Positions 1-35,446 of a stretch of DNA of 35,446 nt are shown here, piece after piece (position 1 is the stretch's first letter; every line of letters starts with the position of its first letter). The notes under the pieces were generated by a model. It saw only the letters and a list, made by a program, of their open reading frames with translations, made no database searches and was not told where the DNA came from. Position numbers and translations under genes: made by a program. The stretch comes from a virus, in the IMG/VR virus record IMGVR_UViG_3300036770_003304, positions 1-35,446 of that record, one strand, 5' to 3'.

Positions 1-120
1 GTGCTCCTCGCTGACCGTCCCTGGCGAGACGCGGCGCGTCCTGACCGTGCCGTCGCGCAGGACGAGCGTGACGAGCCAGTCGCTTTCGCTCGGGCCGAAG
101 AGTCCAACCGCTTGGTGCAT
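1..120 (-). CDS. Small tail-region protein, 5' part only (cut by window edge)
   Basis: The reading frame starts at ATG 120-118 and runs off the left edge after 40 codons. It overlaps the stop of the major tail protein gene as TGATG. It is the variant copy of the complete 85-residue gene at 34512-34769. The visible N-terminus (MHQAVGLFGPSESDWLVTLV) is identical to that copy, and the nucleotide differences over this stretch are nearly all silent. The function is unknown; the place between tail tube and the G-like chaperone suggests a tail-assembly or minor tail role. Confidence 0.8.
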   Translation of the reverse strand, partial: MHQAVGLFGPSESDWLVTLVLRDGTVRTRRVSPGTVSEEH

Positions 121-542
121 CAGACAAGCCAGGTCACGACGGGCGCAGCGCCGTCCGCATTCGCGAAGTTCGCCGTGATCGTGACATCGCCCGTCTTGTC
201 GGACGCGAAGGCGTAGTTGTTCACGATGCAGTTCGCCGCGATGCGGCAGTCGTTCGTCGCCGTGCCGTCAAAGAGGCCGAGGACGATCTCGGTCGTGCCC
301 ACCTGATTGAACATCACGGCGGTGCTCGTCGTGCCCGCGTCGTTGACCTCGAGCGATCCCGTGAAGCTGCCCGTCAGGTCGAGCATCCCGAGACGGCGGC
401 GGCGACCGCTGTCGCCGAAGCCCGTCAGGTCGCTTTCGCTGCGCGCGAGGGTCGCCGCAAAGGTGCGAACCTTGATCTTGTTCGTGATGCCCGTTCCGAG
501 CGAGACATCGCCGTCGTTTCCGATGATGTAGGTGGTAGCCAT
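120..542 (-). CDS. Major tail (tube) protein, left copy
   Basis: This 140-residue protein lies just after the tail terminator gene and just before the G/GT/tape-measure block once the genome is circularised, the canonical place of the siphovirus tail tube subunit. The composition fits a beta-rich tube protein: many Thr, Ser, Val, Gly and Ala, no membrane segment, and strand-like segments such as DVTITANFANADGAAPVVTW at the C-terminus. It differs from the right copy (34769-35191) at six residues (17, 73, 81, 82, 85, 118). About 30 base changes separate the two copies, so most are silent, which indicates purifying selection between two real variants. The assignment rests on synteny and composition. 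Confidence 0.8.
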   Translation of the reverse strand: MATTYIIGNDGDVSLGTGITNKIKVRTFAATLARSESDLTGFGDSGRRRRLGMLDLTGSFTGSLEVNDAGTTSTAVMFNQVGTTEIVLGLFDGTATNDCRIAANCIVNNYAFASDKTGDVTITANFANADGAAPVVTWLV

Positions 543-552
543 GTGGAAGCCC

Positions 553-954
553 TCAGATGTCCCAAGCGGTGAGCCTGTACCGTTCCGTCATCGTCCAAGC
601 GTCGTCATCGAATGACGGCACGCCGCCCGCGACCTTGACGGCGGTCACGCGGTCGATGCCCGATCCCGACACCGCCGCGATCGGAGTCGCCATCGCCGTC
701 TCCAGTTCCTGCGCGATCGTCCAGATCGCGGTGTTGCCCGCGTTCGTGTAGACGATCAGGAAGTCGACATCCAGCGTGTACCGCTTCTGGTTGCCGAAGT
801 GCGGCTCGACGAGCGCCGAGACGGACGAGTAGACGACGAGCGGGGTCGGCGTGTTCGCGGGAGCCTCGTCGAGGTAGATGCGGTAGCCGCACGCCGTGAG
901 GAGCGCGGTGCTCGCGTTGATCCGCGCGCGGAGGCTGTCGAAGATGCCCTTCAT
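553..954 (-). CDS. Tail terminator / tail completion protein
   Basis: This 133-residue protein begins MKGIFDSLRARINASTALLT and contains an alternating helix-strand pattern with a central VDFLIVY strand. Its size, position between the gp10-like and tail tube genes, and the opening 'short helix, A.T.L....G.RIY.D' pattern match the DUF3168/gpU-like tail terminators that cap the tube and join it to the head. The start ATG (954-952) overlaps the stop of the gp10-like gene as ATGA. The 3' part is present again as a variant at 35202-35446. Confidence 0.7.
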   Translation of the reverse strand: MKGIFDSLRARINASTALLTACGYRIYLDEAPANTPTPLVVYSSVSALVEPHFGNQKRYTLDVDFLIVYTNAGNTAIWTIAQELETAMATPIAAVSGSGIDRVTAVKVAGGVPSFDDDAWTMTERYRLTAWDI

Positions 955-2860: not shown

Positions 2861-3882
2861 TCGCTCGGCCTCCCCTCGTCGTTGTAGACACTGGTGTACT
2901 GGTGCTTGCTGCGGAGGTTCTCGTCGGGCCAAGTCACGACCAACTGGAGGTGACCGATCCGCACGCGCGGCGTGCAAGCGATCCGACCGCCCGCCGCGCG
3001 GAGCGCCTTCCAGAAGTGGATGTCGTCGTCGACCCTGCCGTCGCCCCACTCGCCCGAGTCGTTCGGCGACCCGAGGAACCACGGCTTTGGCATCCGCCGC
3101 AGCGCGTCCGTGCGGATCAGCGACAGGCCGAAGTGCCCCGTCTCGCAGTCGACGACCTCCTGACGGAAGACCTCGGCGGGAATCTGGCGGATGCGCTTCC
3201 CCTCCTTGTCGGTCATCGACAGCAGCACCGTCTCGCGGTCGCGCCCGATCTGGAGCGGGAACAGCGCGTCGACGCTCGGGTTCGTCTCCATGATCTGCCA
3301 CATCCGCACGATGTCGTTGTGGTCGAAGACCGAATCGAAGTCGATCGTCAGGATGTACTTGCGCTTCTCGTTCGCGACAACGCGCTCCATCATGCGCTGA
3401 AGGCACTGCCCCCAGAACACGCCCGTCGCCTTCGTGAAGTCGATGCCCAACCGGGCGCAGGCAAGGGTCGTCGCGCCCATCGTCTCCGTCCACGCGATGC
3501 GCGGCAGGGACATGATCGCCTCGACATCGGACATCGGCAGCGTCGGCACGGGCCGCTCGACGCGCCGAGCGATAACCGAGAGCCACCCCGCGCCGTCGCA
3601 CCAACTGGTTCCCGTCGCGCCGCCGACGATGTCCCACCCCGCGAGGGCAAGCACCTTGGCGAGCTTCTCGCGGTTCCAGATCGAGCGGTACGCGCCGCGC
3701 GAGAGGATCGCGTCCTCCGCGCTGCCCGTCCCTTCCTTGTACATCTCGCAAGCCGCGTCGAAATCTGGGACATCGAACCGCGCGTACTGAAAGTCGGCCA
3801 AGTACTCCTTGGCCGCGTTGACCTCCTCGCCGCTGATCGCCCGCGCAAGAATGTCGTTCCTCAATACATCCGCATCTGCCAT
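2845..3882 (-). CDS. Glycosyltransferase (GT-A fold) in the head module
   Basis: The gene encodes 345 residues. The C-terminal two-thirds reads as a GT-A/GT2-type nucleotide-sugar transferase. A DxD-type metal site occurs at residues 181-184 (strand YILTI followed by DFDS), a CETGHFGLSLIRTDAL segment near 246-261 matches the acceptor-side 'G.g..lirr..l' region, and DDDIHFWKALRAAG (285-298) is followed by a G-H near 310. The N-terminal 100 residues are unassigned. It lies between the decoration protein and the connector genes, with a stable hairpin just upstream. I infer glycosylation of a virion protein, though DNA or host-surface modification is possible. No signal peptide or membrane segment is visible. 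Confidence 0.78.
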   Translation of the reverse strand: MADADVLRNDILARAISGEEVNAAKEYLADFQYARFDVPDFDAACEMYKEGTGSAEDAILSRGAYRSIWNREKLAKVLALAGWDIVGGATGTSWCDGAGWLSVIARRVERPVPTLPMSDVEAIMSLPRIAWTETMGATTLACARLGIDFTKATGVFWGQCLQRMMERVVANEKRKYILTIDFDSVFDHNDIVRMWQIMETNPSVDALFPLQIGRDRETVLLSMTDKEGKRIRQIPAEVFRQEVVDCETGHFGLSLIRTDALRRMPKPWFLGSPNDSGEWGDGRVDDDIHFWKALRAAGGRIACTPRVRIGHLQLVVTWPDENLRSKHQYTSVYNDEGRPSECASY

Positions 3883-4479: not shown

Positions 4480-5850
4480 TCAGAGGGTGAGCTTGACGAT
4501 CGCGCCGTACTCAGAGGCGCTGCCGATGTTCGCGAGGTTGATGTCGAGACGCTCGGTCGCGCGAACCGCGATGAGGTCGTTCTCCCAAGCGTCGCCGCCC
4601 GAGTTGCTGAAATCGACCGCAGTCTGACGGCGGTCGCCGAAGTACGCGGCGAGACGGAGGTCGCCGACATACGCGAAGGTCGCGCCGCCCGTCTCGGAGA
4701 CTGGGATCGACTGCGCCCACACGACGGGGTAGCCGAGGAAGGTCGGCTCGCGCAGACCCTGCGACAGCGTCACCATCGTGTTTCCGCCACCCGCAGCCGC
4801 GAGGCGCTCGAACACGCCGTGCCACGCCTGCTTGTTGGTGTAGATCTTGATGTTGTTCCGCGTCGAGGCCCAAGCGGGGAGCTTGCGGAACGCCGCGATC
4901 AGGTCGGCGAGCGCAACGCCCGCGTAGGTCGTGACCGAACCCATGTCGGCGACCTGATAGGTCGCGTCCGTGAGCGCGTTCGCGAGGCCGACGATGCCGC
5001 CGTACGCGCCAGTGCCGTCGCCGTTGAATCCCGCGTTGTCCTCGGCGAACGCGAGCGCCTGAGCGATCTCGTCCGCAGCGTCGTCGCCGAGGTTGACGAG
5101 GCTATCCTCGTTCAGTTCGCTGCTGATCTCGGTGAGAACGGCGAGCTTCTTGGCGACGAGCTTGTTCTGGCCGAAGGTCGACTGCGACTTCGTGATCGGC
5201 GAACCCTCGCCGACCCAGTACGCCGTCAGGCCCGCGCGGCGCTTGTTCACATTGCGGACATCGCTCGACATCGGGATGACCCGAGCCTCGCGGCGGAACA
5301 CGCCGTACTCCTCGCGGAGGATGACGAGCTCGCTGTCCATCTCCTCGGGGACGAGGAAGCCGCCCGCCGAGTTCACGCCCTCGACATGGGCCTTCTCGCG
5401 GACGAGCTGGATGCCGTTGGTCTTGCACCACTCGACGGACTTGGTGTGTCCCATCGCTGCGGCGCAGAATCGACCGAAGCGGTAGGCGCGCGACTCGCCT
5501 TCGCGGTCGTTCTTGAACGACTTCAGCTTGCCGTACGCGCGGGGAGCCTCGACGCGCGGCTGCGCGGCGACGGCCTTGGTGTTGACGATGTCGGCGAGAG
5601 CGGACTTCACCGCACTCGCGATCTTCTCTTCGGTCATCTCGTCCTCCTTCGCCATGTCCTGCTCCACTGCGGGAGCGGCGGCGGTAATCACGATGTCAAG
5701 CGAGTCGGGATCGACGGCCATGCCAGCCTCGTCCACGATCATGTAGTTCTCAAGGATCAGCTTCTTCTGGGCAACGACCCCAGGCTCACCCTTGATCCGA
5801 CCCGCGCGCTCAAGGGCGCTGCGGAAGTCGGCGGTGTTCATGGTCTTCAT
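4480..5850 (-). CDS. Major capsid protein, HK97 fold
   Basis: The gene encodes 456 residues. Residues 1 to about 150 form a charged, largely helical scaffold-like delta domain (AKEDEMTEEKIASAVKSALA), expected to be removed by the prohead protease. The mature core begins near residue 162 with SAGGFLVPEEMDSELV, the typical HK97-family start. It continues with a spine-helix/P-loop region (VAKKLAVLTEISSELNEDS), the A-domain stretch GFNGDGTGAYGGIVGLANAL and FLGYPVVWAQSIP, and closes with a C-terminal AVRATERLDINLAN segment. It follows the protease gene after a 79-nt gap. The ATG at 5850 has an AGGA site about 8 nt upstream. Confidence 0.97.
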   Translation of the reverse strand: MKTMNTADFRSALERAGRIKGEPGVVAQKKLILENYMIVDEAGMAVDPDSLDIVITAAAPAVEQDMAKEDEMTEEKIASAVKSALADIVNTKAVAAQPRVEAPRAYGKLKSFKNDREGESRAYRFGRFCAAAMGHTKSVEWCKTNGIQLVREKAHVEGVNSAGGFLVPEEMDSELVILREEYGVFRREARVIPMSSDVRNVNKRRAGLTAYWVGEGSPITKSQSTFGQNKLVAKKLAVLTEISSELNEDSLVNLGDDAADEIAQALAFAEDNAGFNGDGTGAYGGIVGLANALTDATYQVADMGSVTTYAGVALADLIAAFRKLPAWASTRNNIKIYTNKQAWHGVFERLAAAGGGNTMVTLSQGLREPTFLGYPVVWAQSIPVSETGGATFAYVGDLRLAAYFGDRRQTAVDFSNSGGDAWENDLIAVRATERLDINLANIGSASEYGAIVKLTL

Positions 5851-6610: not shown

Positions 6611-9546
6611 TGGATTCCTGCCTCAAGGTTGATGCGGCGGCGCTCGGCCTCGATGTCGCCCGACTCCTCGATCTCGCGTATTTCGCGCTCAAGCGCGTCG
6701 GAAAGCACGGGCTGCATCGAGCAGCGGCAGTTCGGATGCAGCGGCGGCCCCTTGATGTCCTCGTAATCGAGCACCATCTCGCCGCCGTCCGCGCCCTTCA
6801 GCAACTCGCCGCGCGCGTAGAACGAGTCGCCGAGGCCGATCGACTTCGCGCTGTATGCCTTGCTCGCGGCCTCACAGAACTCGCACGGATCGGGCGCGAG
6901 CAACCAAGTCTTGCCCTGCACCAATCCCGTCGCCGTCCACGCGTCGACCTCGGCGGTGCGTGCGGCGCGCTGCGCCTCCGTGCGCGCGACCGTGCGCGCG
7001 CGCGACCACGACCCGTCCTGATCCTTCTGCGATTCCGCCCAAGTCTGCACGCGGGTCGCCAGTTCGTCGACCGTCTCGCCCTTCTCTAGCCCGTCCCCGA
7101 GCACCTCGCGCACGCGGACGGCGGTCTGCTCGGCCACGCCCGACGCGGTGCGGCGCGCGAGGCGCACCGACTCCGTCTCGGCGTACGCGCGGAGGTCGGA
7201 TCGCTCGACATCGAAGTCCACGGTCGTCGCGACCTTGGCGACCGTGTCGATGCCAAGGTCTACGCCGACCGAGATCGCGTCACGGAGGTACGGCGCGAGC
7301 GCGTCGACGAGCGCCCGCTGGTACTGGCGCGACCGAAGCAGCGCCTCGGCGCGGACGATCAGCTCGCGCGACGGCGTGCCCGCCTTCGCCAGTTCGTCGA
7401 GCACGGCCTTCACCTGATCATCGAACACGCGCGAGACGGACGCGGCCATCGTGCGCTCTGCGTCGTTGATCTCGCGGCCCTCGCTCTCGGCGTTCTTGCG
7501 GTGTATCCCAGTGGATACAGCCGACTCCCACATCGCCTTCTGGGAAATCCTGCGTGCAGATTTGCAGCCACAACCGCAAGACTTCTTCTCACGCGCGCGG
7601 TCGAACTCCTCGACCTTGCGCCGCGCCCACGCGTAGCCCTCGTCGCCGCCCCACCCGTTCCACGCTTGCCACCCCTTGCCCTGCTCGTCCCAAGTCTCGC
7701 CTTCCTTGTCGGACTGGTGGCGGTCGAAGTAGGCGACCATGCGGCGAATCGTGTCCTCCGACAGTTCGCGGCGGTTCGCCAGGTCGCGCGCCCGCGCGAG
7801 TCCTACGGCGGTCATGCCGCGCTGACTCTCGGGCTTCGACTCGCGGACATCGAGCGCGCGCCGCGCGTTCTCCGCGACGGCGGCGGGCGGCGTGGTGTCG
7901 ATGTCGCCGAGCGCCTTGGCCTTCGCGAGTTCGTCGCGCTCCATCGTCGCGATGACCTCGTCCGCGCTCTTGCCCTCGCGGCACATCGAGTACGCGATCG
8001 CGACTGCCTGATCCTGCGGGTATCCCTCGGCGAGAAGCGTCTGAATCTTGCCGCTGACGCAGTCGCCGATCGCGTCCTTCGTCTCGACGGCCTTCGCCTC
8101 GACGGTCGGCTCTTCGGTCGGCTCCTCGACCTCGACGGCCTCCACTGGCTGCGCTGCGGGCGCGGGCGCGGACGCGCCGAACAGCCCGCCGAACGGCGAC
8201 GGCGCGGCGGGTGCGCCGCCGAGCGGCTGACCGTTGATGAGCGGGCGGTCTGCCATCGGATCGGGCAGCGGCTCAAGTCCCTCCTGCTGCCGCGCCTCGT
8301 TGATCGTAAGAATGCCGCCAGACACATAGGTCGTGCGCTTCGCCGTCTCCTGCGCCTCGTCGGCGCGAACGGGGTTGTCGTACGCGAGGAACGCGTCCTC
8401 CTCGATGCCGAACAGCGGGAGGAGCTGCTGATTCAGAACCTCCTCGTCCATGCGGAGGAGCGGGAGGATCGTCGTCTCCTTCCACGAAGCGAAGCCGACC
8501 GTGGCCGACGCAAGGTTCGGATCGTTTGCGCGGAGCATCGAGACGGGCACGCCGAACACGGCGGCGATCTCCTCGACGATCTCCTCGCGGCCCTGCAAGT
8601 CCTTCGGCGGGAACTGGAGCGGCTTGAGGTCGACCTCGCCAGTCACCGCGAGGAAGCGGCCCGTCTTGTTCGTGCCGCGCAGCTTCGTCTCGACCTGTGC
8701 CGTGAAACGCTCCAGTTCCTCGTCGGACGCGTTGCCCTTGCTAACGAGCAAGTAGTCGGGCCGCGACTTGTTCGCGAAGAAGTGGTAGTCCATCTCATGG
8801 AGCGCGACATTCGATGTCACCGCGCCCCACGCCGCCTCGACCTTGCCAAGCCCGTAGTAGATGTCGCGCGGGTTCGGGTACTTGAAGTGGACCACCTCGT
8901 CGGGCGCGAAGTCCTGACGCTGCGCGTCGTTGCGCCCGTACTCGTAGCCCTTGACGAGTTCCTCTCCGCGCAGCGGGTTCCCTGGAACGATGCGCATCCA
9001 CTGGCTCGGCATCGTCCACACCTCGACGGGGACATTCAGCGTCGGGTCGAGCACGGGGTGGAGGTACGCGTTGCCCGTCAGCTCCATGTACAGCACGCGC
9101 AGGACGGTCGCGTCGAAGCCGTTCTGGTAGGGGTTGACCTTCGCGAGAAGGGTGAGGAGCGGATGCGTGTCCGTGACGACCTCGTAGTCGTCGCCGTACT
9201 CCGCTGCCTTCGTCATCGCGTAGCGCGACGGGAGCTGCGCGAGGTCGCCCGACAGGTACGCCTTCGTGCGGCGACCCGTCCTGCGCGTGTTCCATGCCTT
9301 CGTGCCCGACGAGCGGTTGCGCACATAGAGGCGAAGCGGCTGCGAGGCGACCGCGATGGCGTTGAGCCGCGCGGCGGCGTACACCCACGATCGGTTCTCG
9401 ACGACCGCGCGGTGGTAGTCGAACGGCGGCGGGACATACTCGCGCCCGATGAGAGTCGCCGTGCTCGCGACCTCGTACCGCTGCGGGTCGTCGTTCGTGT
9501 ACGCGGCCTTGCCGAGGATGGACTTGATGCGGTCGATGATGCTCAT
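6607..9546 (-). CDS. Portal protein fused to a MuF-type head morphogenesis domain
   Basis: The ORF encodes 979 residues from ATG 9546-9544 (4-bp overlap with the terminase). Residues 1 to about 430 are a phage portal: WVYAAARLNAIAVASQPLRL, YMELTGNAYLHP, AAVFGVPVSML. An acidic Pro/Ala linker follows. Near 495-530 is a short unit with the pattern DCVSGKIQTLLAEGYPQDQA. Near 550-650 is a domain seen in other phage head proteins (RGMTAVGLARARDL, TIRRMVAYFDRHQSDK, WGGDEGYAWARRKVEEF). A CGCGC cysteine cluster sits near 659. The C-terminus is a MuF-like domain with TEAQRAARTAEVDAW, DPCEFC and a closing PPLHPNCRC. Portal and MuF are usually separate genes, so this is a large fusion. The portal ring is the DNA gate, and MuF proteins enter the head interior. 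Confidence 0.92.
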   Translation of the reverse strand: MSIIDRIKSILGKAAYTNDDPQRYEVASTATLIGREYVPPPFDYHRAVVENRSWVYAAARLNAIAVASQPLRLYVRNRSSGTKAWNTRRTGRRTKAYLSGDLAQLPSRYAMTKAAEYGDDYEVVTDTHPLLTLLAKVNPYQNGFDATVLRVLYMELTGNAYLHPVLDPTLNVPVEVWTMPSQWMRIVPGNPLRGEELVKGYEYGRNDAQRQDFAPDEVVHFKYPNPRDIYYGLGKVEAAWGAVTSNVALHEMDYHFFANKSRPDYLLVSKGNASDEELERFTAQVETKLRGTNKTGRFLAVTGEVDLKPLQFPPKDLQGREEIVEEIAAVFGVPVSMLRANDPNLASATVGFASWKETTILPLLRMDEEVLNQQLLPLFGIEEDAFLAYDNPVRADEAQETAKRTTYVSGGILTINEARQQEGLEPLPDPMADRPLINGQPLGGAPAAPSPFGGLFGASAPAPAAQPVEAVEVEEPTEEPTVEAKAVETKDAIGDCVSGKIQTLLAEGYPQDQAVAIAYSMCREGKSADEVIATMERDELAKAKALGDIDTTPPAAVAENARRALDVRESKPESQRGMTAVGLARARDLANRRELSEDTIRRMVAYFDRHQSDKEGETWDEQGKGWQAWNGWGGDEGYAWARRKVEEFDRAREKKSCGCGCKSARRISQKAMWESAVSTGIHRKNAESEGREINDAERTMAASVSRVFDDQVKAVLDELAKAGTPSRELIVRAEALLRSRQYQRALVDALAPYLRDAISVGVDLGIDTVAKVATTVDFDVERSDLRAYAETESVRLARRTASGVAEQTAVRVREVLGDGLEKGETVDELATRVQTWAESQKDQDGSWSRARTVARTEAQRAARTAEVDAWTATGLVQGKTWLLAPDPCEFCEAASKAYSAKSIGLGDSFYARGELLKGADGGEMVLDYEDIKGPPLHPNCRCSMQPVLSDALEREIREIEESGDIEAERRRINLEAGIQ

Positions 9547-10721
9547 ATGACTCTCATCGTCATCGGCGGTCGCGATCGTCGGGAATGCACCGCAAGCGCG
9601 AGCGCGCACACGCCGTCGTCGTGCCCCGCCGTCGCCTCGTACGAGACGCTTCTCCCCGAGTATCGGTAGCCGAAGGACTCCAGTTCCGACCTCAGCCACC
9701 CCTCGGGGAAGCGGATGTCGGCGGTCTGGATGGAGACTTGCAGCCCCTCCATGAGTTGCTGCTTCGACTGCGAGGTGAACTTGAAGCCGACCGCGCGGCG
9801 GCACACCTTCATCAAGTCCTCGACGATCGGGTCGCCAACGCCCGTCGAGTCGATCATCGCGGGCGCGGCACCGATCATGTGCGCGAGGCGCTCGCGCGTC
9901 ACGGCCCACGGCGCTTGCCACCGCTCAAGGCGACACACCGCGCCGTCCTTGTCGAGCGCGACGGCCACCGTGTAGTCCTGGCTCTTCGCGAGGTCAACGC
10001 CCCAGTGCGCGGGCGCGGCGACCGACATCGGCCCGATGCACGCGCGGATCGCGTCGAGGCCGAACGGGTTGCCGCCGTCCTCAGCGGGCACGCCCTCGTA
10101 CTCCTGCGCAAACACCTCGGGCGGCAGCGACCTCCGCGCGGCCTCGACCTCGTCGGGGTCGATGTGCGGATTCTGGCGCGTCCCGATGCGAAAGGCCCGC
10201 ATCGTGCCAGTCGTGTCACCTTCCGCCTCCGTGAACAGGCGGTGGAAGTCGCCCGTCCCCTTCGGCGTGCCAAGGAAGAGCGCGGATCCCTTGCGGTCGG
10301 CGAGCGTCGGTCGCGCCGCGTTGCGCCACCATTCCAACAGGTGCGGCACGAACCCCGCCTCGTCCACGACGATCAGGTCGTAGTCTCGGCCTCGGCCCGC
10401 GTCGACATCCTCAAGCGACCAGAAGTCGATCACGCCGCCGCCGTAGACCTCCATGCGCTTCTCGATGCGGTCGTGTCGCTTGAGCGCAGGGCCGAGCGCA
10501 CGCTCAAAGTACCGCACTGGCTCGGCGAGGTACTTGTAGGTCGGAGCGAACCAACCACACTTCCGCCGATGTGTGGCAGTTCTGATCCCGAGCAGCTGAC
10601 CGAAGGTCGTCTTGCCCCACCGCCGACCGATCTCAAGCACGGAGAACCGCGCGAGCCTGTCGAAGACCTCGCGCTGCGACGGGTGCAGCAGCCCTTGGAT
10701 CGGCGGGACTTCTACCCTCAT
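9543..10721 (-). CDS. terL: Terminase large subunit
   Basis: This 392-residue packaging ATPase-nuclease has the Walker A at 32-39 (GRRWGKTT), Walker B with catalytic glutamate at 116-123 (LIVVDEAG), and a coupling motif near 150 (LGTPKGTGDFHRLF). The RNase H-like nuclease domain shows acidic residues in GVDLAKSQDYT (D243), MIDSTGVGDPI (D291) and AGHDDGVCALALA (D368/D369). All core parts are present and the length is normal for a compact terminase. It cuts concatemeric DNA and pumps it through the portal. It overlaps the small subunit and portal genes by 4 bp each. Confidence 0.96.
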   Translation of the reverse strand: MRVEVPPIQGLLHPSQREVFDRLARFSVLEIGRRWGKTTFGQLLGIRTATHRRKCGWFAPTYKYLAEPVRYFERALGPALKRHDRIEKRMEVYGGGVIDFWSLEDVDAGRGRDYDLIVVDEAGFVPHLLEWWRNAARPTLADRKGSALFLGTPKGTGDFHRLFTEAEGDTTGTMRAFRIGTRQNPHIDPDEVEAARRSLPPEVFAQEYEGVPAEDGGNPFGLDAIRACIGPMSVAAPAHWGVDLAKSQDYTVAVALDKDGAVCRLERWQAPWAVTRERLAHMIGAAPAMIDSTGVGDPIVEDLMKVCRRAVGFKFTSQSKQQLMEGLQVSIQTADIRFPEGWLRSELESFGYRYSGRSVSYEATAGHDDGVCALALAVHSRRSRPPMTMRVI

Positions 10722-32958: not shown

Positions 32959-33935
32959 CAGATGAATCCCCCGAGCGCCGCCGCCTTTGCGTTGATCTGC
33001 CTAACCTGTGCAAGCAGCGCCTGGTCGTTCTGCTTCTTCTCGTTGTCGGAGTATGCGGCGAACCTGAACTCGCCGATCGCCGTCGAGATGCTTCCGACCG
33101 CGCCGCTCATCGCCTGTCGCTGCGACTCGACCTCGGCCAGTTCCTGCTTCAGAAGGTCGAGCTGCTTCTCGCGCCGAGCCTCGTCCTCGCGAGCCTGCTT
33201 CTCGGCCTCCTTGCGGATTCGCTCCTCGTCGGCTTGCTTCTGGCGTTCCGCCGCCTCGTCGATCGCTCGGATGCGCGCGGCTGCGGACTGCTGAATCAGT
33301 TGGCGCTCGGCCTGAAAGATTTCCGCAAGGAACTTTCTTTCGCTGTCGCGGGTCGCCGCAAGGCTTTCCTCCTTGAACTGCTTCTCAAGCGCGGCGAGCT
33401 TCTCCTGCGCCTCAAGGTCGATCGCAAGACGCTCGTCTCCCGCCTCGCGCGCCGCGTTGCGGCGCAGTTCGAACTCGGCGGCGACCAGACGCTTGGCGCG
33501 CCCCTCCGCGACGGCAAGCGACTTCTGCGCCTCTGCCTCCATTACGCGGGACGCTTCGCGCGCGGCCTCCGCAGCGGATGTCCCGATCGCGTAGTCCATC
33601 ATCGCCTCGGCGAGGCTTGCAAACGCGCCGATGACGGGAACCGACTTGATTGCAGCAGCGAGCGCGTCCGTAAAGTTCGCGCCACGCGCGCCCTCCTCGA
33701 TCGCAACCTTCATTGCTTGGGAGATCGCACCGACCGCGATCGCCCCGCGTATCGAGTTCTGCAACTGCTTCGCGTAGTTCGCGCCGAGCCCCTCGCCCTG
33801 CTTGTCGAACGAGTCCTTGAACGCCTTCCCCGCCTCGCCGCCCTTCGTCGCGGCGGTCGTCTTCACGGCGGTCATCGACTCGTTGAAGCGAGTCATCGTC
33901 GCCGCCACGGAGATATTGATAGCGCCCGCGTTCAT
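32958..33935 (-). CDS. Tape measure protein (short)
   Basis: The 325-residue protein starts at ATG 33935 after a GGAGG ribosome site. It begins with a strand/helix start typical of tape measures (NAGAINISVAATMTRFNESM), then an Ala/Gly helical stretch with a hydrophobic core (IRGAIAVGAISQAMKVAIEE, VPVIGAFASLAEAMMDYAIG) and a long charged coiled coil (RIRAIDEAAERQKQADEERI, REKQLDLLKQELAEVESQRQ). The length gives a tail of roughly 50 nm by the usual 1.5 Angstrom per residue rule. It is the last gene before the distal tail genes and follows the G/GT frameshift pair. Confidence 0.88.
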   Translation of the reverse strand: MNAGAINISVAATMTRFNESMTAVKTTAATKGGEAGKAFKDSFDKQGEGLGANYAKQLQNSIRGAIAVGAISQAMKVAIEEGARGANFTDALAAAIKSVPVIGAFASLAEAMMDYAIGTSAAEAAREASRVMEAEAQKSLAVAEGRAKRLVAAEFELRRNAAREAGDERLAIDLEAQEKLAALEKQFKEESLAATRDSERKFLAEIFQAERQLIQQSAAARIRAIDEAAERQKQADEERIRKEAEKQAREDEARREKQLDLLKQELAEVESQRQAMSGAVGSISTAIGEFRFAAYSDNEKKQNDQALLAQVRQINAKAAALGGFI

Positions 33936-34515
33936 CGTCCCTCCACATATCGTCTCATCCAATCGCCCTCATCGGTGCGCTCGCCGTGGCCCTTGACGGC
34001 CATCAGCAGATGCGCCTCAAACTCGCCGCAGACGAGGTCGAGCGGGTTGCCGAGTCCAGGGCACGCCCGCGCCACCAGATGCGCGTGCGCGAGCCAGTCG
34101 CGCGGCGGCTCCGGCGGCAGCGGGCCTACGGATTTCCCGACGCGGCCCGCCGTTCGTGCTCCTCGATGTCTATCCCGAGCGCGGCAAGCGCGAGCGCCGT
34201 GGCGACCTGTGGCTCGACGAGCGCGACGAGTGCGCCGCTCTCGTCGCACGCGCGGTCGAGGACGCGCAGCGCCCCCGACAGCGAGAAGCACGACATGACT
34301 AGCGCGCTCGCGCGCCTCGCCTCGTCGCGGGCCGCGCGCGCCTCCGCGACCGCCTCCTTGGGCGTCATGCCCGCAGCGCGCGCGTCCCGCGCCGCGTCCG
34401 CCGCCATCGCGTCCGCGAGGCTCTCGCCGAGGGCGATCCGTTCGCGAACCGTCAGCGGGCGCAGCGAGAACGCCCGCCCGTCCACATCATGCGTCCATGC
34501 AGAAAGCCTGATCAT
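33932..34515 (-). CDS. GT: frameshifted tail assembly chaperone (T part fused to G)
   Basis: The second frame (33932-34132 in its own register) has no credible start but runs open from the slippery site at 34132-34138. A -1 shift after the G codon AAT would join the first 128 residues of the 129-residue G protein to 66 residues of T (SVGPLPPEPPRDWLAHAHLV ... GDWMRRYVEGR), a 194-residue G-T fusion. Its end overlaps the tape-measure start as ATGA. As in lambda, the T part would recruit the tape measure. The joining is inferred from sequence, not observed. Confidence 0.85.
34126..34515 (-). CDS. G: tail assembly chaperone (unshifted product)
   Basis: The 129-residue protein starts at ATG 34515 (ATGA overlap with the preceding gene) and ends at TAG 34126-34128. 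It is mostly helical and Ala-rich (LRPLTVRERIALGESLADAM, PKEAVAEARAARDEARRASA) with a hydrophobic centre. It lies between the tail tube and the tape measure, the lambda gpG position. The slippery heptamer ends one codon before its stop. Confidence 0.85.
   Translation of the reverse strand: MIRLSAWTHDVDGRAFSLRPLTVRERIALGESLADAMAADAARDARAAGMTPKEAVAEARAARDEARRASALVMSCFSLSGALRVLDRACDESGALVALVEPQVATALALAALGIDIEEHERRAASGNP
34132..34138 (-). promoter_or_regulatory. -1 ribosomal frameshift slippery heptamer G_GGA_AAT
   Basis: On the minus strand the G-frame codons read TCG GGA AAT CCG TAG. The heptamer GGGAAAT fits X_XXY_YYZ in the zero frame, and the -1 frame (GGG AAA TCC GTA) is exactly the open frame running to 33932. 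Lambda uses the closely related G_GGA_AAG at the same place in its G gene. GC-rich, stem-capable sequence follows (GCCGCC and GGCGGC units). Confidence 0.9.
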
Positions 34516-34769
34516 CGCATCCTCCTCCGCATCAGCTCCGCGAACGCATCGTCAGGCGCGGCCACGCGCTTGTCTCCGACGCGGCGGATGCTCCAACCGT
34601 CGATCCCCTTGAGGTCGACCCGCTCCGACATCACCGCGCACCGAACCGCGTGCTCCTCGCTCACCGTGCCCGGCGAGACGCGTCGCGTCCTGACCGTGCC
34701 GTCGCGCAGGACGAGCGTGACGAGCCAGTCGCTTTCGCTCGGGCCGAAGAGTCCAACCGCTTGATGCAT
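34512..34769 (-). CDS. Small protein between tail tube and G (complete copy)
   Basis: The 85-residue protein starts at ATG 34769, overlapping the tail tube stop as TGATG (GTG 34772 is an alternative). It has beta strands (SDWLVTLVLRDGTVRTRRVS) followed by helices and ends with a basic ELMRRRMR. Function unknown; its position suggests a tail-assembly accessory. The 5' part is repeated in variant form at 1-120. Confidence 0.72.
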   Translation of the reverse strand: MHQAVGLFGPSESDWLVTLVLRDGTVRTRRVSPGTVSEEHAVRCAVMSERVDLKGIDGWSIRRVGDKRVAAPDDAFAELMRRRMR

Positions 34770-35191
34770 CACACAAGCCAAGTGACGACGGGCGCAGCGC
34801 CGTCCGCGTTCGCGAAGTTCGCTGTGATCGTGACATCCTGCGTCTTGTCGGACGCGAAGGCATAGTTGTTCACGATGCAGTTCGCCGCGATGCGGCAATC
34901 GTTCGTCGCCGTGCCGTCGAACAGGCCGAGGACGATCGCCGTCGTGCTCGTCTGGTTGAACATCACGGCGGTGTTCGTCGTGCCCGCGTCGTTGACCTCC
35001 AGAGAACCCGTGAAGCTGCCCGTGAGGTCGAGCATCCCGAGTCGGCGGCGACGACCGCTGTCGCCGAAGCCCGTCAGGTCGCTCTCGCTGCGGGCAAGGG
35101 TCGCCGCGAAGGTGCGAACCTTGATCTTGTTCGTGATGCCTGAGCCGAGCGAGACATCGCCGTCGTTTCCGATGATGTAGGTGGTAGCCAT
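34769..35191 (-). CDS. Major tail (tube) protein, right copy
   Basis: The 140-residue variant of the protein at 120-542 has Ser17, Asn73, Thr81, Ser82, Ala85 and Gln118 in place of Thr, Ser, Val, Gly, Glu and Gly. In one circular genome this is the same gene as the left copy. The changes lie mainly in surface-like loops and the reading frame is intact, so both are functional alleles. Confidence 0.8.
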   Translation of the reverse strand: MATTYIIGNDGDVSLGSGITNKIKVRTFAATLARSESDLTGFGDSGRRRRLGMLDLTGSFTGSLEVNDAGTTNTAVMFNQTSTTAIVLGLFDGTATNDCRIAANCIVNNYAFASDKTQDVTITANFANADGAAPVVTWLV

Positions 35192-35201
35192 GTGGAAGCC
35201 C

Positions 35202-35446
35202 TCAGATGTCCCAAGCGGTGAGCCTGTACCTCTCCGTCATCGTCCAAGCGTCATCGTCAAATGACGGCACGCCCCCCGCGACCTTGACGGCGGTCACGCG
35301 GTCGATCCCCGATCCCGATACCGCCGCGATCGGAGTCGCCATCGCCGTCTCCAGTTCCTGCGCGATCGTCCAGATCGCGGTGTTGCCCGCGTTCGTGTAG
35401 ACGATCAGGAAGTCGACATCCAGCGTGTACCGCTTCTGGTTGCCGA
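35202..35446 (-). CDS. Tail terminator, 3' part only (cut by window edge)
   Basis: The frame enters from the right edge and stops at 35202-35204. It contains the last 80 or so residues of the protein that is complete at 553-954 (for example DVDFLIVYTNAGNTAIWTIA), with only silent or near-silent base changes. It is the variant copy belonging to the terminal overlap. Confidence 0.8.
   Translation of the reverse strand, partial: GNQKRYTLDVDFLIVYTNAGNTAIWTIAQELETAMATPIAAVSGSGIDRVTAVKVAGGVPSFDDDAWTMTERYRLTAWDI

Follow-up and report, generated by a model that had tools for sequence, protein, structure and literature searches.

The window analyzed here, which spans all 35,446 bases of an IMG/VR virus record, carries its structural genes on the minus strand, where a tail tube gene, a G-like gene, a T-like extension and a tape-measure-like gene follow one another in an order that is identical in relatives (Table 1). 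The tube gene matches the PHROG major tail protein family weakly (E 0.0089), with better matches in relatives. The identity of the putative tape measure gene is based on its position and on length variation: its homologues differ in length and share conserved N and C termini, and family searches with this gene gave nothing above cut-off. The small size of the gene, and the similarly short genes of relatives, suggest a short tail. Between tube and G lies an 85-aa ORF that starts within the tube stop (TGATG) and ends within the G start; it was found in tube-seeded relatives and had no family match.

The two ends of the window (1-797 and 34650-35446) form a gapless repeat of 797 nt with 94.4% identity, and each end carries a tube gene together with the terminator gene in whole or in part, the terminator copy at the right end being cut. 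Joined at these ends, the genes would stand in the complete canonical order, which makes a circular or permuted genome of about 34.6 kb probable; the 5.6% mismatch between the ends probably reflects either differences between strains or a seam in the assembly at this place. The terminase (9543-10721) finds its best matches in Halorubrum phage Hardycor1 and in Thermus and Meiothermus phages at 32-34% identity, and the capsid (4480-5850) matches isolates at 26-30% identity, so the window has no close isolate.

Table 1. Features of the tail gene region and of the G-T junction; positions are those of the window unless a related contig is named
Feature	Position	Strand	Basis
G-like ORF, 129 aa, putative unshifted tail assembly chaperone	34126..34515	-	ORF, 26-sequence family alignment, AlphaFold2
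T-like extension, -1 frame	33932..34138	-	open frame, 27-sequence alignment
Slippery heptamer G_GGA_AAT (predicted -1 re-pairing GGG AAA)	34132..34138	-	sequence, GGGAAA in 32/37 lineages
TAG stop of G, one codon past heptamer	34126..34128	-	sequence
Predicted stimulatory stem-loop in mRNA	34065..34125	-	folding, shuffles
Tape-measure-like gene, 325 aa	32958..33935	-	position, homologues
Conserved 85-aa ORF between tube and G	34512..34769	-	sequence, presence in relatives
Tail tube (major tail protein)	34769..35191	-	weak PHROG match
Tail terminator/completion protein, full copy	553..954	-	Pfam PF11367, E 4.5e-6, above cut-off
Junctions lacking tandem heptamer	L035 about 3098-3111; L073 about 4108; L274 about 2998-3010		

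On the minus strand the zero-frame junction reads GCG TCG GGA AAT CCG TAG, with a single CCG codon separating the heptamer from the stop of G, exactly where a prior sequence-only reading had placed it. The same reading had the -1 frame running on to 33932, and it does: the frame continues as GGG AAA TCC GTA GGC and stays open until TGA (33934-33932), which overlaps the ATG (33935-33933) of the tape-measure-like gene. The T extension comprises 66 codons past the heptamer, or 68 including the two heptamer codons, and the predicted G-T fusion is 194 aa long. The bare 7-mer GGGAAAT carries little weight by itself, as 1.6 occurrences are expected by chance in the window; its placement is more telling. 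In about 48 plausible window genes, a set of our own selection from the ORF list, eight in-frame X_XXY_YYZ motifs occur in 11,892 codon positions, and the one in G is the sole member of the eight within 150 nt of the stop of its gene (the next nearest lies at 165 nt). Since an in-register site near its own stop is thus unique among window genes, the placement is not due to chance. By eye, no Shine-Dalgarno-like stimulator was apparent 10-14 nt upstream of the window site.

To follow the site through the family, searches were seeded with G, the tail tube, T and T sequences of a sister clade, which yielded T homologues at about 100 distinct loci, some of them near-duplicates; these were grouped at 80% identity into 37 lineages. 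The first tube-seeded search had returned 12 relatives picked without reference to G or T, and all 12, down to 56% tube identity, carry GGGAAA followed by A, C or T at the identical place, with G in the zero frame, T in the -1 frame and the G stop 3-54 nt past the heptamer. In the full set GGGAAAN stands in register in 32 of 37 lineages and A_AAC_CCU occupies the same place in two more, giving a canonical heptamer in 34 of 37, and T lies at -1 relative to G in every lineage where both are visible. The expectation of the sequence-only reading that relatives keep the heptamer and both frames is thereby upheld. GGGAAAC accounts for 23 of the 34 clusters, followed by GGGAAAA (5), GGGAAAG (3), AAACCCT (2) and GGGAAAT (1); the window therefore has the rarest last base, most relatives having AAC as the second codon of the site. 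No second in-frame X_XXY_YYZ was found in 2,781 positions of the family G genes.

This conservation does not follow from the protein encoded in the zero frame. Across 25 GGGAAA clusters the six hexamer columns are invariant, and every flanking column holds 1.3 bits or less; the clusters were chosen for carrying the site, so that the informative part is the contrast with the flanks. Synonymous shuffling of G retained the hexamer in a mean of 5.6 of the 25 clusters (maximum 13), against 25 observed. On a family tree built without the T residues of the site itself, the seventh base changed at least seven times, as against a single change of the hexamer. The site has a second codon that encodes Asn in some clusters and Lys in others, and the residue preceding the site may be Ser, Ala, Gln, Pro, Glu or Arg, with the third base of its codon staying G throughout. 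Because the residues vary while the hexamer stays, zero-frame coding does not explain it, and its retention across nearly the whole family indicates that the frameshift site is real.

The RNA downstream of the site is predicted to be strongly folded. The 77 nt past the window heptamer (34055-34131) fold at -51.1 kcal/mol (z -2.86 relative to dinucleotide shuffles, of which 3 in 200 were as good), and synonymous shuffles that preserve the T protein give z -4.2 over 78 nt. The main stem has 15 bp with one bulge, runs from 34125 to 34065 and begins 6 nt past the heptamer. Over 27 clusters the mean z is -1.8 with dinucleotide shuffles as the reference and -1.8 to -1.9 with shuffles that preserve the T protein (-1.9 for 57 nt), compared with about 0 to -0.5 for regions further downstream, whose averages under T-protein-preserving shuffles lie between about +0.1 and -0.4. 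The distance from the heptamer to the first helix of 5 bp or more has a median of 5 nt. RNAalifold applied to the 27 diverse downstream regions returned no single consensus stem, and per-sequence folding against protein-preserving shuffles was used in its place; what is conserved thus appears to be a stable fold, not one shared helix.

Downstream of the heptamer, T is conserved as a protein, with the motif RDW..AHLIAR.APGLGNPLDL..EF..HL in a 27-sequence alignment; upstream of the site, several clusters have a stop in the T frame within 18 codons. We therefore weighed whether T might be an independent gene, initiated at a start of its own (a GTG inside G, or an internal GTG or ATG) or by re-initiation past the G stop, with the heptamer being incidental. 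The claim of the sequence-only reading that the second frame has no start codon of its own bears directly on this point and holds in substance, since no standard start occurs between the heptamer and T codon 21, with the qualification that mechanical ORF calling assigns the frame the GTG at 34291, inside G. This GTG, the GTG at codon 21 and the ATG at codon 45 are what an independent T could draw on, but such candidate starts sit either in the non-conserved overlap or, as codon 21 already does, within the conserved domain. Moreover, five of 27 clusters have no ATG, GTG or TTG between the upstream T-frame stop and the conserved domain, and in L073 and L274 this domain is preceded by 92 and 74 open T-frame codons, respectively, among which no standard start occurs. 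With starts missing ahead of a conserved domain, T is apparently made only by entry from G; separate initiation would also leave the conserved hexamer unexplained, and we consider it very unlikely.

Fused frames can also result from transcriptional slippage, in which the polymerase, not the ribosome, would join G to T. Such slippage generally requires a longer homopolymer than is present here, where the runs of identical bases within GGGAAAT are only three long, and a conserved, register-specific X_XXY_YYZ followed by a stem fits ribosomes, so that we give this explanation almost no weight. A sequencing or assembly frameshift within one continuous gene is a natural concern for a metagenomic contig, particularly one whose ends differ by 5.6% over 797 nt, but the separately assembled contig L003 has the same junction and a G protein of identical sequence, and the two-frame arrangement recurs at about 100 homologous loci, which makes such an error wholly improbable as the source of the split.

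Programmed -1 ribosomal frameshifting of the lambda G/GT class, assigned from position, architecture and signal in the sequence, is thus the reading that we favor, with a probability of roughly 0.94. The gene order supports the earlier claim that the site lies between tube and tape measure as in lambda, and the heptamer belongs, as had also been claimed, to the GGGAAA-type tandem sites. Neither G nor T, however, has detectable chaperone homology, so that "lambda-type" holds for mechanism and architecture only. Searches of Pfam, PHROG and PDB, run with G and T both as single sequences and as families, gave no significant known relative; PHROG 344, annotated as tail assembly chaperone, matched four of 26 G members weakly (best E 0.022). 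AlphaFold2 models G with a pLDDT of 94 as a beta-hairpin followed by helices, and T as some three helices, its end being poorly predicted. A Foldseek search of G against PDB returned nothing below E 1.9, and the best viral fold match was an uncharacterised Caudovirales protein (E 9.4e-5, TM 0.70). The tube and a T homologue gave no tblastn match in 50,697 phage records, and a scan of genome contigs recovered one contig only, L076 in a Proteobacteria MAG, which is the sole cellular record found. The kind of frameshift is well known; the family, judged from these sequence searches, appears to be new, with no relative by tube or T in the phage-record collection.

The exceptions to the GGGAAA rule are of two kinds. 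In the sister clade of the window (L076, L086 and L092) AAACCCT stands at the aligned position, and in L035, L073/L074 and L274 the G-T junction has no tandem heptamer. The aligned position in these reads CGTCCCT in L035, GGACCCT in L073 and CCGCCCT in L274, so that in the zero frame they share NNC_CCU_CNN, whose single proline codon is their only common slippery element; in L073, the final 40 codons of the overlap hold no Z_ZZN tetramer other than C_CCU. For nearly all -1 shifts the least that is required is a Z_ZZN tetramer (PMC5009743). As a tentative lead, these sequences suggest that frameshifting was retained while its site changed, with A_AAC_CCU taking the place of G_GGA_AAN in the sister clade and NNC_CCU_CNN doing so in L035, L073/L074 and L274. 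The C_CCU part of this reading draws on few sequences, namely a single contig for L035 and two remote lineages for L073 and L274, and a further scan for outer-clade T relatives found no lineage beyond these last two. Upstream of G, both L073 (2674-3490) and L274 (about 1567-2400) also have a pair of neighboring tail-tube-like genes that differ from each other.

For the window, we propose that most ribosomes would read G to its TAG and yield the 129-aa chaperone, whereas a minority would be slowed by the predicted stem-loop that lies about 6 nt further along the mRNA and would slip back by one base on G_GGA_AAU, the tRNA-Gly re-pairing from GGA to GGG and the tRNA-Asn from AAU to AAA. The slipped ribosomes would bypass the stop and read 66 further codons to give the G-T fusion. 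What is observed directly is the sequence with its two frames, and the conservation of site, frame and downstream structure; the slip and its rate are inferred. The chaperone and binding functions are assigned by analogy with lambda, by which the G part may coat the tape measure protein, leaving the recruitment of tube subunits to the T part. In the model for lambda, both gpG and gpGT associate with the tape measure protein, and T provides the contact with the tube subunit (PMC5009743).

The locus resembles lambda G/GT in its location between tube and tape measure, its two overlapping frames, its -1 direction, its GGGAAA-type tandem heptamer near the end of G (G_GGA_AAG in lambda) and, as predicted for the window, a longer fusion that is the minor product. 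It differs from lambda in its strong downstream stem, its T of only about 66 codons, its 85-aa ORF between tube and G, and chaperones without detectable homology in the tests made. A frameshift of this kind is reportedly general in tail assembly (Xu, Hendrix and Duda 2004; reviewed in PMC5009743). The A-site codon also differs, being AAU (Asn) in the window and AAG (Lys) in lambda; the placement of tRNA-Asn in the A site was counted against the lambda-type reading, G_GGA_AAG being strongly shifty and efficient in E. coli (PMC5009743). In Burkholderia phage KL1, gp18/gp19 has a predicted site, GGGAAAC directly before the TGA of G (PMC3483164), which we verified in the KL1 sequence; GGGAAAC directly ahead of the G stop and a -1 extension are features shared with most of the family. 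Unlike the window, KL1 has a much longer T and an extra gene between GT and the tape measure gene, and its G (gp18) cannot be aligned with the window G family (hhalign probability 0.3%). The haloviral g-t gene of HCTV-1 uses G_GGA_AAC (PMC5009743) and so shares the heptamer class and the AAC second codon found in most relatives, but HCTV-1 is a haloarchaeal siphovirus with an archaeal host.

These results make it very probable that G/GT frameshifting is at work in a phage family without an isolate in the phage collection searched. Because standard family libraries do not recognise these chaperones, naive annotation would miss T or assign it a wrong start. The family also presents a natural series of sites, with A, C, G or T as the last base of the heptamer and with A_AAC_CCU and C_CCU at the aligned position, which would be useful for testing which codon pairs, or which single tRNA slips, suffice for -1 shifts in GC-rich bacteria.
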